DNA from: Candidatus Woesearchaeota archaeon
Lineage (GTDB): Archaea; Nanobdellota; Nanobdellia; Woesearchaeales; GW2011-AR4
Assembly (NCBI GenBank): GCA_016185955.1
Contig: JACPMQ010000006.1
Span: 1-32,055, forward strand
Length of the DNA: 32,055 nucleotides
Direction: 5' to 3'
Shown one piece after another: positions 5,110 through 32,055 of the stretch (position 1 is its first letter; each line of letters starts with the position of its first letter). The notes beneath the pieces are model-generated. The model saw only the letters and a list, made by a program, of their open reading frames with translations, ran no database searches and was not told the DNA's origin. Both the position numbers and the translations under genes were made by a program.

Positions 5110-5193
5110 TGGACTTGGGGGGATTCGAACCCCCAGCCTTCACCCTTTTCTAAAAGATGCGAAGGTGACGTCATGCCGTTAGACCACAAGCCC
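5110..5193 (-). tRNA. tRNA-Ala(CGC) with about 12-nt intron at 37/38 (5146-5157)
   Basis: Acceptor GGGCTTG/CAAGTCC with G3-U70 and A73; anticodon stem TCACC/GGTGA; T-arm GGGGGTTCGAATCCCCC; anticodon CGC. Confidence 0.8.
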
Positions 5194-5237: not shown

Positions 5238-5522
5238 GTAACTGCTAACATCACTTTGTCCGAAAAGATGGGTTTTTGCAAATTATTATTCGTTGCTTGT
5301 GCGGAGCCGTAAAAATCCCGCCGTTTGCGAACAGCAAAGTTTTTACAAGTTACGTTGGTAATCTTGCAATTCGGCATTGTTTTGCTTTGGCCGTTGCTCG
5401 TCATTGACAAAACCGATAAACCACGCATTTGGCATCATTTTGCCTTGGCCACGGCTTGTCACTATCAAATTACGCACAAGCACTTAATTCGCAAAAACCC
5501 TTTATGTTGTGTTAGCAGTTAC
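5238..5522 (+). repeat. TIR element copy B, with a divergent core
   Basis: GTAACTGCTAACA (5238-5250) and TGTTAGCAGTTAC (5510-5522), subterminal GGGTTTTTGC.. / ..TTCGCAAAAACCC, flanked by CTTTTTT direct repeats (5231-5237, 5523-5529). Confidence 0.85.
5373..5466. repeat. Two imperfect 36-bp direct repeats (period 58) inside copy B
   Basis: GGCATTGTTTTGCTTTGGCCGTTGCTCGTCATTGAC (5373) and GGCATCATTTTGCCTTGGCCACGGCTTGTCACTATC (5431). Confidence 0.65.
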
Positions 5523-22069: not shown

Positions 22070-22197
22070 AAAAAAATAGATAGTGCAGTAATTTAAATAA
22101 TTATCTTTTTTCTATCGCTATTCGCGAGAATTTCGCAACAACCCTCTGTTCGTGGTAAATACTAACACCTCTTATTCTAAATATATATAGAACATTA

Positions 22198-22346
22198 AAG
22201 TGGCTGCTCCAAAATAAGGGGCGGTGGGCGGGCAGAAGAATGCTAATTGTGCTATCAAAATGGCGTGTATCTGTAAGATATTTTTATTATAAAAAAGAAT
22301 CAAGATGCGCCATTTTGCCTGTAGCGCGGCTCTGGAGCAGCCACTT
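22198..22346. repeat. Nested inverted-repeat element (14-bp outer arms, 10-bp inner arms)
   Basis: AAGTGGCTGCTCCA (22198-22211)/TGGAGCAGCCACTT (22333-22346); CAAAATGGCG (22256-22265)/CGCCATTTTG (22308-22317). Confidence 0.75.
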
Positions 22347-22371
22347 ATATTGTTAGCAGTTACAAAAAATC

Positions 22372-22670
22372 GTATCTGCTAACATAGATTTGTCCGAGAA
22401 GCAGGGTTTTTGCGAAAGTCTAATCCGTGCTTGTGCGGAGCCTTAACTTACCTCTCAGCTTCGCAACATTTCATGTTGCTCAGGTCGTTTATCACAATCT
22501 TAAGAAATTTTCTGAATTGGCAATTACAGCGGAGAACACAAATAATTTATTAAAATAGTTTGTGTTCTCTAGCATAGTGGCGCAATAATTATTGTTCCAT
22601 TATTTAGTTGCGCCACTATACGCACAAGCACTTAATTCGCAAAAACCCTTTATGTGGTGTTAGCAGTTAC
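22372..22670 (+). repeat. TIR element copy C, with 92-bp nested hairpin insert
   Basis: GTATCTGCTAACA (22372-22384) and TGTTAGCAGTTAC (22658-22670). Core matches copy E reverse complement except for an insert at about 22528-22619. Confidence 0.85.
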
Positions 22671-26099: not shown

Positions 26100-26118
26100 G
26101 TTTAATGGCTTTAACTCC

Positions 26119-26305
26119 GTAACTGCTAACACAACCTAAGGGGTTTTTGCGAATTCTTATTCGTGCCTGTGCGGAGCCTTATACTCCTCTCAACTTCGCA
26201 ATGCTGCGGCATTGCTCAGGTCGCTTATCACAATCCTGTGAAACTTTCAGAATTGGCAATGACGCACAAGCACTTAATTCGCAAAAACCCCCTGTTAGCA
26301 GTTAC
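26119..26305 (+). repeat. TIR element copy D (shortest complete copy), with 8-bp flanking direct repeats
   Basis: GTAACTGCTAACA (26119-26131) and TGTTAGCAGTTAC (26293-26305), flanked by TTAACTCC (26111-26118 and 26306-26313). Confidence 0.9.
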
Positions 26306-26364
26306 TTAACTCCGAAAGATTTAAATATTCTGCATTTAAGAGTTTTATTTCGGTTGCATTTTGC

Positions 26365-29300
26365 GTGAAAATGATTAAAAAAAGAGGGGTTTGTAGCTAT
26401 AACTTATTGAATTATCTAATTTTGTCTTCTATATTCTCTGTTTTTTTTGTTTCCCTTTCTGCTGTTTCATTTGGCGTTGTTATAGAGCGCAATGTTACCT
26501 TGCAGGACTTTAACTTTAACTCGTCATCAACCTTTAACTTTACAACCAACAGAACTGCGCCTTTTGGTTATTTGAAATTTTATAATCTTTCCAATCCTTA
26601 CAGCAATGCTTATATAGAAGCAACTCAAGGCGCAAAATTATTGCAATTGGGGCATGGGACAAATTATCAGGATTTTGTTGATACTTTTAAAAAAGTGCCC
26701 TTAGCCAATTTTACAGATTTTATGAGCACGAAGTATGGCTCTTTCTCTTCTATTATGGTGTGGTCTAACACTATTATCGGTTTTATTATCCCAAACTCAA
26801 CAGATGGTTCTGAAGGAGGCTATTATTATGCCGCTATTTATATTATTGAGTTTAATATTAGCAGATCTGATATTCCATTTGCTAATATTACTTTTTATTA
26901 TAAATTCAACAACCAGTCTGGAAATAACACATTCGGCGATTTGGGAACATGTGCTGCGCATAATGATTTCCAAAGCTGCTTAGCGGATGTGCAGAATGAC
27001 TGTGACTGGAATAACCAAAAAGGGGTATGTGAGCAGAGCACCTATAGCTTTTCACCAATGTTACCAGCAGCAGAATGCGGAATGCTTCCAAAATTTGCAT
27101 GTGACGCCATTAATAGCAGTTATTGCCTATGGAATCCAAGCAGCGGCAAGCAAGGCAAATGCGAGCCTCAAGGAAGCATTAATCCAATTTATGGGTTTAA
27201 TTGCACTGCTGTAACTAACCATACCGTATGCAATGACCAGCACTTTACAGAGAAAACCGGATTATGCACTTGGGACAGTACAATAGCTAAGTGCCAAATA
27301 AATAAAACGAAAACCAATAGGGATATACCTACTCCAGCAGTATATTCATGCGAGGCTCCTGGATATATAGATAATAGAACAAAGTGCCAAAATCTTTCAG
27401 ATACATATTTTATGCCATGCGGCTTTAACAACCAAACAAGCAGATGTGAAAATATGTTCTTTGACTTTGGCAAATTTGACAAATTTGAAGATATAGGAAG
27501 CTCATCAACATGCCAAAATGCAGGTGGCACATGGAGAACGGAAACTGCATTTGACCCATTAAATAATGGTGTTACTAGCGAAAGCTGGTGTGAGTTTGGT
27601 GTGGCTATCAAAACATTCTCTTCAGTTGGCTCTTCTGGCACAAAAATGTTTAGTGGTACAATTGGAACTCTAAATGATTGCAGCAGGGATTGCTTTGCAT
27701 GTGAATTTAATGGCACTGGAGGCAGATGGCAGAATGTATCAGTAGCGCAGTCACAGTGTGAAGCGTCTACTGTTGGATGCAAGTTTAGAGCAGACTCTAA
27801 CTCTTTTAATGGTTTTGGATGGTGTGATCCTGCAAGTGGCTTCGGTGGCTTTAATTGCAATTCTTTTTGTGGAGACTGCAACCTAATGCCTCAGCCAAAT
27901 GCGTCATGCGTAAATTCTGCTGCTAATTGCAAATGGGATAATGTCACTAATTTTTGTGTAGGTGCTGGAACAAAGGGCTGCGACCAAGATTGTATGCAGT
28001 GCTTTGGTCAAACAAGCTGCCAACATTCTACAAAAATGGGAGGCTGTCAATGGGACTCTTCAGGATTTTTCTGCAAGCCGCAAGGAGGAAGCTTTGAGAT
28101 ATGCTTTGATGGTGTGGATAATGACAATAATGGCAAAACTGATTGCGCAGATTTTAAATGTTCTACTGATTCTTTTTGCGCTGGCGCTGTTGGTGACTCT
28201 AAAGGATGCTTCCAGTTTGATGAATTTTCATATAAGCCTAGTGATGGAAAGAATCATGCCAGAGGCAATTGCACAGCTACAACAGGATGCACTTGGGTTA
28301 CTGAAGAATTTGGCTTTTCATACTGCGCTCCTTTATCAGAGCAGTGTTTCTTAAATGAAAGTTACCAAACAAGCGCTTCTTTATGTGAAAATGTAGGCGG
28401 CGGTAATATTTGTAAATTTAAGCCTGAGACTCATTGTGAGACTAACAAAACAATGGTTGCTGTATGCTCAACAATTACTGTTAAGGATACATGCAATGCT
28501 AATTCAAAATGCGCATGGAGCGGAGCCGATGTTGGTGGATTTTGTGATTTAAAGCCAATTGTGCTTTGCGAAGATAATCAAACATTACAAAGCGATCCTA
28601 CATTATGCAGAACCTCAGGATGCGCGTGGATTGGAAGCCAATTTGGAATGTTTGAAGGAGGCTTCCATCAGAGTTGCGTAAGCCCATGCGGAAACAGAAG
28701 CATAGCATCAGCACAGGATTGCGCAGATTCTCTTGGCACAACATTTGCTGCAGGCAGTTGCGTATGGAAAACAGGATTTTGTGAGCCTGCAGACTTTATG
28801 GGAGGCTGTATGCAGAAAGATGGAGACTATAATGCTTGCAAATCAAATGGAAATTGCAAATGGAATGAAGCAATCTATGCACCTTTAAAACATCTAAATG
28901 GCTCGTCAAGTTTCCAAGATTATATGAATCCGAATGCTACAACATGGCTGGCTATAGGATTAAACTTGCCTATTGGCGGAGCAAATGAATCTGTTTATAA
29001 TTTAACTAAGATAATAGGCGGAAGCTATCTGGCTTTAGTAATGGCAAATGGCTCAAATACACAACTAAATATCTCGAGGCTATACTGTAATAATGATGTT
29101 TTAATGGAATACAATTGGTCAAAAGGAGAGACAGGAGAGGGTAGATGCCAAAAAGGAAGCTGTGATCGTTATAATAATTCCTATTTATGTGATGGAGACA
29201 GAGTCCATTATTACCTCCAAAATGTTACAAGGCAGCTGGAAGTGCTGTGGGAAGTTTCTATTGGATTGTTAAGATTGGATTCTAATGAAAATGACACTAA

Positions 29301-31806
29301 CGTTACAACTACACTCAACATCTCAACTGTTGTTATAAATGGAAACTTATCTGAGCATGTAACTGAAAATGCAACTGCCAAAGATGGCACAAATGCCACA
29401 AGAGTAAGAATATCAACAGGATTCTGCAATGACGGGCTTATGAATACCTTTTTTGCCGGCATGGATCAAGAGCCACCAATACCTATAGCAGCAGATAGAA
29501 CTTCAGATTTAAGCAGCGATACACCAAGCGATCATAGTTATTTAGATATTACTGGATTGGGAGTTAAAAAAACTCCAGAAGCTTATGCTTATGGAATACC
29601 TACTGCAAGTATGACTGGCTCAGCAATCTGTAATGCTGTTCCGTTGCAAGGAGGCTCATTTGGCAGAGGCACAAACAGCTCGAAATATTATCTGCATTTA
29701 GATACTGATGGCGTTCGCAGCGGTGGCTGTTCTCCAGAAGATAATACTACACTTCAAGGCTTTGAATACAGGTTTAAGTATGTAGCTGAGATAGGAAATG
29801 ATGGAAGGTTAACAGAAACTGTCTTAAGCCAGAAATGCTCAAATCAGGCATGGGTTGCAACAAATGTGCCGTTTAAATCAGACAGAAATAAGGGGTGCGG
29901 GTTTGTTAGCGGCCCTATTTTTGCAATAGACAAAAATACTTTTACAGGCAAGAGTGATGTTAATACAAGCGTTGGATGGAGAGCTTATGCGACAAGTGCG
30001 CATTCAGCAGGCAACGCGTCAAATGTTTCTGATAGAATAGGACCGGGCAGCGCTGATTTCAAAGGAATAGATGTTACTCTTGTAGACTGCACAAGCACTG
30101 CTGATAAGGATAATTCACAATGCACTAAATTCAAGCAGTTTGGATTTTTCCCAGGAGAATTTGGACCGGCTTGCATAGACAGCATAGATAATGACGGTGA
30201 TACTTTAACTGACTGCAATGACTTTGACTGCAAATATGATCCTTTCTTCTGCTCCGGAAGCTTTACTGCTTTAGCAGATGACAGCACAGCGCCTACATTA
30301 GTCTGGACTAAAGTCAATGACAAGCTTACAAATATGATTTCATTTATTTTTGATACAGGTGAGCCTGCAAACGGAACTGTAAGATTTTATAACAATGATT
30401 CACAATGCTCAACTTTAAATAACACTTTAAAGGATAAGGCATTGGAAGATAATGATGTATTTACCAATTACAGGCCTCATCATGTAACAGAGCTTACAGG
30501 GCTAGCTGCTAATAAGACATACTACTACAAATATGAAGTATGTGATCCGAGCGGCAATTGCGCAATAAGCAAATGCAGCAATGTAACTACCTCTTCAGCA
30601 TATTCTAATATAACATTTAAGTTAGATATACCGACTAACTGGAGTGTGGAAATCCCAAGCATAAACTTAACTAACTATACTCTGCCATATGCGTTAAAAG
30701 CATCTTCGCAGTTTTTGAACAATATTAATATAACCATTAGAAAGCAAGACAATACAAGCGCTATAACCTTTGTAGGAGTTGATATTTTTGAGAAACAATC
30801 ACTTAATGTTTCACAATTTGTTACAGGAAGCGGTTATGTTGGAATTGATGCTAACCAGTATCAGAGCTTTAAGCAAAAAGCAGGCATGGAAGAAGCTTTT
30901 GTTAAAATACCTTCAACAGGAGATACTGTAAGCCATTGTGATGACAGTGGCGCTAATTGCAAGGAAGTTACAAGCAAATTGACATGCACGTTTAAGACTT
31001 CTTATAGTGATTGTAAAGTGCCAGATGCTGTTGGATTGGGATTTTCAACATACAAGGCATCAACATCAAGCAGCAGCAGTTCAAGCTCTTCTTCAAGCTC
31101 TTCTTCAAGCTCTGGCGGCGGTGGAGGAGGAACTGCACCATTAACAAGCGCAAAAGAAGGCTCTTCAAAGACACAGTTTTGGCAGACAATAACAGCAGGA
31201 CAATCTTTAAACATGAATGTTGATAAGACAGACATACCTATTAAAAAATTGATAGTTACTTCCAAAAACACGCTTTCTAATGTGGAATTAAAGGTGGCAG
31301 TGCTTAAAGAAGCTCCAACTACACAAACAAGCCTTACAAACTCCGTTTACAAGTACATTTCAGTTGAAAAGAAAAATATAAAAGATGAGGATACAGGCAA
31401 TGTAGAAATTGAATTTAAGGTGGAAAAATCTTGGCTAACACAAAATAATATTAATGAAGACGATGTATTGCTTGCAAGATACACTGCATCATGGGAGATG
31501 CTTCCAACAACAAAGCAAAGCTCAGATGCTGCTTATGTAAATTATAAGGCAACTACTCCCGGATTTAGTTATTTTGCTATAGTAAGCAAGGAATCTCCAG
31601 TTGTAAGCGCGCCATTAGAGACTGTAACTGAATCAAAAATAACAGAGCAGCCAATAATACCAACTGCAGAAGTGGCTGTGCAAATACCGGAAAAAGAAAA
31701 AGTTGTTGCAAAAACAAGCAAAACAAGATATTGGTTTGCTATTACTGCATTAATACTTGCAGTACTTTCAGCATTTATGTGGTATAAAAAAAGGTCTGAA
31801 GACTAA
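26365..31806 (+). CDS. Giant cysteine-rich surface protein with Ser/Gly linker, PGF-pre-PGF-like domain and C-terminal TM anchor
   Basis: 1813 aa; N-terminal hydrophobic signal, many CxW..C units, two DNDxDxxxDC motifs, Ser18Gly6 linker, TPGFSYFAIVSKE, TM helix YWFAITALILAVLSAFMWYKKRSED. Confidence 0.85.
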   Translation: MKMIKKRGVCSYNLLNYLILSSIFSVFFVSLSAVSFGVVIERNVTLQDFNFNSSSTFNFTTNRTAPFGYLKFYNLSNPYSNAYIEATQGAKLLQLGHGTNYQDFVDTFKKVPLANFTDFMSTKYGSFSSIMVWSNTIIGFIIPNSTDGSEGGYYYAAIYIIEFNISRSDIPFANITFYYKFNNQSGNNTFGDLGTCAAHNDFQSCLADVQNDCDWNNQKGVCEQSTYSFSPMLPAAECGMLPKFACDAINSSYCLWNPSSGKQGKCEPQGSINPIYGFNCTAVTNHTVCNDQHFTEKTGLCTWDSTIAKCQINKTKTNRDIPTPAVYSCEAPGYIDNRTKCQNLSDTYFMPCGFNNQTSRCENMFFDFGKFDKFEDIGSSSTCQNAGGTWRTETAFDPLNNGVTSESWCEFGVAIKTFSSVGSSGTKMFSGTIGTLNDCSRDCFACEFNGTGGRWQNVSVAQSQCEASTVGCKFRADSNSFNGFGWCDPASGFGGFNCNSFCGDCNLMPQPNASCVNSAANCKWDNVTNFCVGAGTKGCDQDCMQCFGQTSCQHSTKMGGCQWDSSGFFCKPQGGSFEICFDGVDNDNNGKTDCADFKCSTDSFCAGAVGDSKGCFQFDEFSYKPSDGKNHARGNCTATTGCTWVTEEFGFSYCAPLSEQCFLNESYQTSASLCENVGGGNICKFKPETHCETNKTMVAVCSTITVKDTCNANSKCAWSGADVGGFCDLKPIVLCEDNQTLQSDPTLCRTSGCAWIGSQFGMFEGGFHQSCVSPCGNRSIASAQDCADSLGTTFAAGSCVWKTGFCEPADFMGGCMQKDGDYNACKSNGNCKWNEAIYAPLKHLNGSSSFQDYMNPNATTWLAIGLNLPIGGANESVYNLTKIIGGSYLALVMANGSNTQLNISRLYCNNDVLMEYNWSKGETGEGRCQKGSCDRYNNSYLCDGDRVHYYLQNVTRQLEVLWEVSIGLLRLDSNENDTNVTTTLNISTVVINGNLSEHVTENATAKDGTNATRVRISTGFCNDGLMNTFFAGMDQEPPIPIAADRTSDLSSDTPSDHSYLDITGLGVKKTPEAYAYGIPTASMTGSAICNAVPLQGGSFGRGTNSSKYYLHLDTDGVRSGGCSPEDNTTLQGFEYRFKYVAEIGNDGRLTETVLSQKCSNQAWVATNVPFKSDRNKGCGFVSGPIFAIDKNTFTGKSDVNTSVGWRAYATSAHSAGNASNVSDRIGPGSADFKGIDVTLVDCTSTADKDNSQCTKFKQFGFFPGEFGPACIDSIDNDGDTLTDCNDFDCKYDPFFCSGSFTALADDSTAPTLVWTKVNDKLTNMISFIFDTGEPANGTVRFYNNDSQCSTLNNTLKDKALEDNDVFTNYRPHHVTELTGLAANKTYYYKYEVCDPSGNCAISKCSNVTTSSAYSNITFKLDIPTNWSVEIPSINLTNYTLPYALKASSQFLNNINITIRKQDNTSAITFVGVDIFEKQSLNVSQFVTGSGYVGIDANQYQSFKQKAGMEEAFVKIPSTGDTVSHCDDSGANCKEVTSKLTCTFKTSYSDCKVPDAVGLGFSTYKASTSSSSSSSSSSSSSSSSGGGGGGTAPLTSAKEGSSKTQFWQTITAGQSLNMNVDKTDIPIKKLIVTSKNTLSNVELKVAVLKEAPTTQTSLTNSVYKYISVEKKNIKDEDTGNVEIEFKVEKSWLTQNNINEDDVLLARYTASWEMLPTTKQSSDAAYVNYKATTPGFSYFAIVSKESPVVSAPLETVTESKITEQPIIPTAEVAVQIPEKEKVVAKTSKTRYWFAITALILAVLSAFMWYKKRSED
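31081..31116 (+). repeat. 12-bp tandem repeat (TCAAGCTCTTCT) encoding the Ser tract
   Basis: Two exact units (31081-31092, 31093-31104) and a third partial unit. Confidence 0.75.
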
Positions 31807-31820
31807 GTTCTTGATTTTGG

Positions 31821-32055
31821 GTAACCGCTAACACAGCATAAAGGGTTTTTGCGAAAGTAAGTGCTTGTGCGTAATTGCCAATTCAGAAAACTCCATAGGA
31901 TTGTGATAAGCGACCTGAGCAACATGAAATGTTGCGAAGCTGAGAGGTAAGTTAAGGCTCCGCACAAGCACTAAATTAAACTTTCGCAAAAACCCACCTT
32001 AAGGCTTTGTCATGGCACAGACGGACTTGTCGGACAAATCTATGTTAGCAGATAC
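31821..32055 (-). repeat. TIR element copy E, inverted relative to A-D, running to the window end
   Basis: GTAACCGCTAACA (31821-31833) and TGTTAGCAGATAC (32043-32055). Reverse complement matches copy C without its insert. Confidence 0.87.

Follow-up and report, generated by a model that had tools for sequence, protein, structure and literature searches.

Small non-autonomous DNA transposons (MITEs) are, in the textbook picture, elements whose ends need to be conserved and whose interior is passive. In the family analysed here this pattern is reversed: an interior fold persists in three archaeal families through compensatory change, while the ends are lost or replaced. Known prokaryotic MITEs whose transcripts are structured (ERIC, Correia/NEMIS, RUP, SPRITE and the archaeal elements SM1-SM4 of Sulfolobus) are, like our repeat, 100-300 bp long, intergenic, present in many copies, equipped with TIRs and TSDs and capable of forming stable stem-loops (PMC2229807, PMC10969869). 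In contrast to them, our repeat shows its deep conservation in the interior fold, its ends being exchanged or decayed, and the two TIR/TSD types of one genome share a core. With BOX of Streptococcus pneumoniae (PMC3049150) it has in common a modular architecture with variable internal hairpin modules and a terminal stem. It differs from BOX in being archaeal, in having another sequence without a tandem boxB-like array, and in the compensatory replacement of hairpins across families. Dispersed palindromic repeats with covarying arms are also known as REP/BIME (TnpA-REP, Y1/HUH), but no Y1 transposase is adjacent to our elements, and the fixed length of their TSDs indicates a transposase acting at the ends. 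The integron attC sites resemble them in presenting a variable terminal hairpin on conserved bases, and would work in a similar way if a single-stranded DNA fold is recognised here. They are nevertheless no attC sites: RYYYAAC...GTTRRRY boxes were found in none of 99 matches, no cassette array was seen, and TIRs and TSDs are present instead.

The window, i.e. the whole stretch of 32,055 nt that was analysed, is contig 53 of the 83 contigs of a 984-kb Woesearchaeota genome (G000), and encodes the archaeal RNA polymerase subunit D; the size and gene content of the genome suggest a DPANN lineage. Copy D is a complete element on the plus strand at 26119-26305 with the outer TIRs GTAACTGCTAACA and TGTTAGCAGTTAC, flanked on the left (26111-26118) and on the right (26306-26313) by the 8-bp TSD TTAACTCC. 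The part at 26140-26290 matches our covariance model R1, which comprises a TIR-derived inner stem H1, the closing stem H2 and the core. In copy D, the arms of H2 are GTGCCTGTGCG (26163-26173) and CGCACAAGCAC (26263-26273), and the central hairpin at 26198-26215 lies between two conserved strands, CTCAACTTC (26189-26197; GAAGTTGAG on the minus strand) and TCAGGTCG (26216-26223; CGACCTGA on the minus strand), which form the opposite sides of a tandem G.A internal loop. Copy C (22372-22670, plus strand) is also complete and carries inserted hairpins in its 3' part, while copy E (31821-32055, minus strand) runs to the contig end. A further copy at 79-141 on the plus strand is a 3' part truncated by the contig start, with nested inserted hairpins in 1-110, and a related element at 5238-5522 (plus strand) shares the TIR and the H2 stem, but its central core is replaced by different hairpin modules. 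The inserted hairpins (GAGAACACAAA..., AGTGGCGCAA...) are perfect and are nested or inserted at a fixed unpaired site of the element, so that the overall fold is kept (window 22530-22620 and 1-110; L034, L039, L043, L047, L056 and L060). In copies from relatives (L083, L087, L088 and L090 in G002, G005 and G001), loops or junctions contain an inserted palindromic repeat of the GTGAATTGCGAGYGA type.

The original prediction was based on the central hairpin, which reads GCAACAT-TTC-ATGTTGC in copy C (22463-22479, plus strand) and in copy E (31919-31935, minus strand), and GCAATGC-TGCG-GCATTGC in copy D (plus strand). These coordinates and sequences match the window exactly, and direct re-reading of the three copies confirmed that three consecutive pairs are changed and still complementary. 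Pairs 5-7 are C-G, A-T and T-A in C and E and T-A, G-C and C-G in D, all seven pairs are intact in both forms, and the loop has 3 nt in C and E and 4 nt in D. The hairpin flanks, described as conserved, indeed are: the 20-mer TCAGGTCGYTTATCACAATC has 40 exact matches in the genome, and its reversed control has none. The use of the C/E-versus-D difference as an argument for selection on a fold did not hold up. In this genome the difference is a single linked two-state block and not a series of many independent changes, and alone it is weak evidence. Among the fetched copies of this genome each of the two stems is present in about 30, far more than chance would give, with loop variants only and no broken intermediates. 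On the tree of the remaining element the block switches 18 times, and randomly dealt labels give 12-21 switches. Since the block reassorts between copies and represents a single allele, the difference proves little by itself. The block may have been produced by one template switch, the kind of single event named as an objection; across related species the evidence is strong.

The covariance model was built from 24 copies and used to scan this genome, its relatives and a sample of 281 genomes of the phylum. It gave 80 matches in this genome, corresponding to about 78 copies, about 34 distinct copies in another genome of the same taxonomic family (G012), and about 1-5 copies in each of five genomes of the same genus (G001, G002, G004, G005 and G009). 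That several congeneric genomes have so few copies speaks against a host function. The remaining genera sampled from the host family had no matches, except for two weak ones in G003. In the phylum sample the core also turned up in two further families of this order (G105, G130, G193 and G213; G315 and G317). The elements are mostly about 150-310 bp long, without coding capacity and dispersed over the whole genome, in which the end GTTAGCRGTTAC occurs 140 times. They are intergenic, usually no more than some tens of bp away from a predicted gene. Searches of plasmid, phage and viral contig collections gave no match to the element, and neither did Rfam, whether at its gathering threshold or with E values of up to 1. 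At the contig end on the right of L018 (G000 C64:23227-23458) a tRNA 3' end is repeated in inverted orientation across the element, which is probably an assembly fold-back.

Analysis of the ends revealed two types. The first, GAGGTTGGTGCGAAA...TTTCGCACCAACCTC, bounds the elements in relatives and part of the copies in this genome, and is associated with a 9-bp TSD (mean identity 0.62 against a background of about 0.3, in one register only). The second, with the outer ends GTAACTGCTAACA...TGTTAGCAGTTAC, was found in this genome only, plus a single match in G011, and has an 8-bp TSD (mean identity 0.59, again in one register only). Since both TIR/TSD types are found on the same core, two terminal systems carry one core, and each of them also carries other interiors (22155-22363 in the window for the GTAACTGCTAACA type, L099-L111 for the GAGGTTGGTGCGAAA type). 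With its TIRs, TSDs and dispersal, the repeat is a family of MITEs in an archaeal order. The element at 22155-22363, of about 209 bp, has GTAACTGC-type ends and a different interior and adjoins copy C; it is one of many units of this kind in the genome. The GAGGTTGGTGCGAAA ends also bound a second element family with another interior, a GGTTGCCATC...GATGGCAACC stem with inner GACAAGGGG...TGTC hairpins, and also shows paired changes between copies; it was seen at L099-L101 and L103-L111 in G003, G009, G011, G013 and G014.

An autonomous transposase with the ends of the element was not recovered. We presumed an IS6/IS240 partner because of a similarity of the TIRs, but none of the IS240-type genes, present in 14 of 36 genomes of the family, is flanked by the TIR. 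An IS1595 gene exists only in G130 and lacks flanking TIRs. Y1 genes, found in 10 of 25 genomes, are never adjacent to cores or flanked by TIRs, and they were not found in the core-bearing genomes G130, G193, G213, G315 and G317, several of which are at least 90% complete. In G004, eleven contigs break inside an identical sequence starting with GAGGTTGGTGCGAAAATAACAAAATAAG (L115-L118, L126-L132). This sequence, which shares its end with our element, is probably the missing autonomous insertion sequence, with its interior unassembled.

The comparison with G012 shows how differently the parts of the element have aged. In its copies the mean identity is 64% for the columns of the 5' TIR and 66% for the 5' linker, while the core strands reach 96% (CTCAACTTCGC), 97% (GCTCAGGTCG) and 98% (the strand preceding the 3' arm of H2). 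The arms of H2 are 93% identical, and those of the central hairpin are only 77% identical yet paired. The copies were located via the core, which means that decayed cores would escape detection; even so, abundant intact cores beside decayed ends are not expected under uniform decay. The other two families mostly have different ends and a different H2 sequence, with the core strands retained. For example, the end in G213 is GACACTGTCAACTT, and the ends in G317 are AGCTGTGGTGCA...TGCACCACAGCT, flanked by TTTGAAGAG, while G105 and G130 have a close variant of the first end type, GAGGTTGTTG.

The pairing itself was then evaluated in larger alignments. Among 98 distinct aligned copies 99.2% of the cells of the central helix are paired, with double-sided changes at all seven pairs, and for the whole structure none of 500 shuffles reached the observed values; sliding the partners destroyed the signal. 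The covariation anticipated from three copies is thus also present in a larger set. In 39 diverse copies from the three families, from which antisense matches had been removed beforehand, the central helix is paired in 97.1% of the cells and 43 cells are double-changed, where shuffles reached at most 79.5% and 18; for H2 the values are 95.2% and 47, where shuffles reached at most 84.3% and 17. The covariation of H2 equals that of the central hairpin in quality. Fitting the alignments to the model favours pairing; the hairpins can, however, be recognised without it too, as their flanks are nearly invariant. We excluded the covariation of the TIR arms as evidence for the fold, because it is expected from transposase recognition. 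Across related species about 15 different stems occupy the central site, and essentially all are complementary. They include GCAACAT, GCAATGC, GCATAC, GCAAAAC, GCAAAC, GCAACGC, GCATTGC, GCAATAC, GAAATAC, ACAAAC, GCAAAT, GCTGC, GCGAC and GCCAC, each accompanied by the complementary arm. The hairpin is reduced to GC-TTC-GC in G001, G005 and others; since 2 bp suffice in these relatives, the middle stem need not be long. Together, the paired stems across families and the core that outlasts the TIRs point to a constraint on the fold and not only on the ends, and such a constraint beyond the termini is well supported. In this respect the earlier proposal of selection on a structure stands.

Within genomes, the copies vary as if they recombined almost freely. 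For 51 copies of this genome the mean r-squared between sites is 0.40 at distances under 10 nt, falls to 0.02-0.05 for distances of 10-99 nt, and is 0.08 at larger ones, which include the TIR partners. In G012 (31 copies on long contigs) polymorphic sites are likewise unlinked beyond about 10 nt. The copies are probably mosaics of one another, formed through conversion or template switching; that the mosaic pattern is an assembly artefact is less likely, and the long contigs of G012 speak against it. The strongest associations persisting over distance are those between paired positions. TIR partners 140 nt apart have r-squared values of 0.67-0.77 in this genome, and in G012 the top value, 0.61, belongs to an H2 pair with a spacing of 97 nt, though this is near the permutation maximum. 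At equal spacing, linkage is 0.86 for hairpin sites and 0.12 for other sites. Since each genome offers dozens of natural replicates, the family allows a test of whether repeat hairpins are selected or only arise through replication slips.

Based on these observations we propose, with a probability of about 0.5, that the family is conserved in its internal fold and not in its ends, and that the constraint acts via a folded single DNA strand. The internal fold comprises about 110 nt, with up to three hairpins enclosed by the closing stem H2, and the middle hairpin is presented by the two conserved strands, which on the minus strand form the tandem G.A internal loop CTGAGC...GCGAAG. The minus strand could fold, for instance, while the element is replicated or transposed, and a putative structure-specific factor could bind it and thereby help the element to spread. 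Many of the paired changes probably come from template switching between the arms of a hairpin, and selection would keep those that fold. The strand assignment relies on motifs: the tandem G.A internal loop is conserved, and GNA triloops occur in 13 of 20 distinct stem-triloop types on the minus strand and in none on the plus strand, although loop types are partly inherited together and the 13 are not independent events. d(GNA) loops are known to form extraordinarily stable DNA mini-hairpins (PMC4686876), and the G.A motifs and the triloops suggest a folded single DNA strand. On inspection we rejected two other readings: a kink-turn in the internal loop, whose strands give no C-stem with a 3-nt bulge, and a hammerhead, to which CUGA...GAA has some resemblance but whose core bases are absent.

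We rank this folded DNA strand before a function as RNA, and the latter before a purely mutational origin by template switching. Selection of one RNA strand would be accompanied by tolerance of G.U on that strand, but not of A.C. Among the distinct helices there are 19 G.T and 21 A.C in H2 and three of each in the central stem, and the three-family set contains 6 G.T and 9 A.C against 389 Watson-Crick cells. Such rare and strand-symmetric wobble pairs do not favour RNA, and neither do the folding energies, which are without strand preference, or the lack of an Rfam match. Of the two options in the original wording, folded DNA or RNA, the second is thus not favoured, and the loop and internal-loop motifs indicate one strand. 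A role as RNA, less probable than a folded DNA strand, would mean that the element is co-transcribed with its neighbours and, in line with proposals for ERIC, NEMIS and BOX, influences how stable an mRNA is or how it is processed, or that it acts as a dispersed small RNA. This would fit an intergenic, MITE-like element near predicted genes with stable folds on both strands and conserved unpaired segments. In tandem-gene contexts, as judged by simple ORF calling, the minus strand is co-transcribed in 25 cases and the plus strand in 11, a mild bias which an RNA role would predict likewise, and the pair adjoining the hairpin shows the minus-strand wobble more often (C-A 13, T-G 4).

Template switching is able to create and maintain hairpins (PMC8794818). 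That it alone makes and repairs them by quasi-palindrome correction, while transposition and conversion spread them without any structural selection, would agree with the change of three pairs and the loop as one block without broken intermediates in this genome, and with the stem arms in G012, which appear to have been copied one from the other in either direction. We consider it unlikely, since it leaves unexplained why unpaired strands next to decayed TIRs are 96-98% conserved, why the same core is present in three families and why the loop motif is one-sided; in addition, point-mutation intermediates exist (ACAAAAC/GTTTTGC beside ACAAAC/GTTTGT). Less probable still is an ordinary, recently amplified MITE family, conserved by recent common origin and with pairing relevant at the TIRs only. 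The TIRs, TSDs and copy number are those of MITEs, and the TIR arms covary as transposase sites would, but the copies in G012 and in the other families are diverged with the core kept and hairpins differing by compensated changes, and the contrast between core and TIRs in G012 contradicts this explanation. It is tempting to go further than the folded-strand proposal and to view the core itself as a functional mobile or recombination module, a structure-recognised folded ssDNA that several transposon termini of unrelated origin have acquired in three archaeal families, with its variants shuffled between copies; this we regard as unlikely, if slightly less so than an origin by template switching alone. 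Rfam 15 lacks this new structured element, which can be looked for in archaeal RNA-seq and protein-binding data.

Two other features of the window should be mentioned. An ORF of 1813 aa without Pfam match occupies 26365-31806. At 5110-5193 lies a tRNA of 84 nt, which matches Rfam and was missed by ARAGORN, and which possibly contains an intron or a long variable arm.
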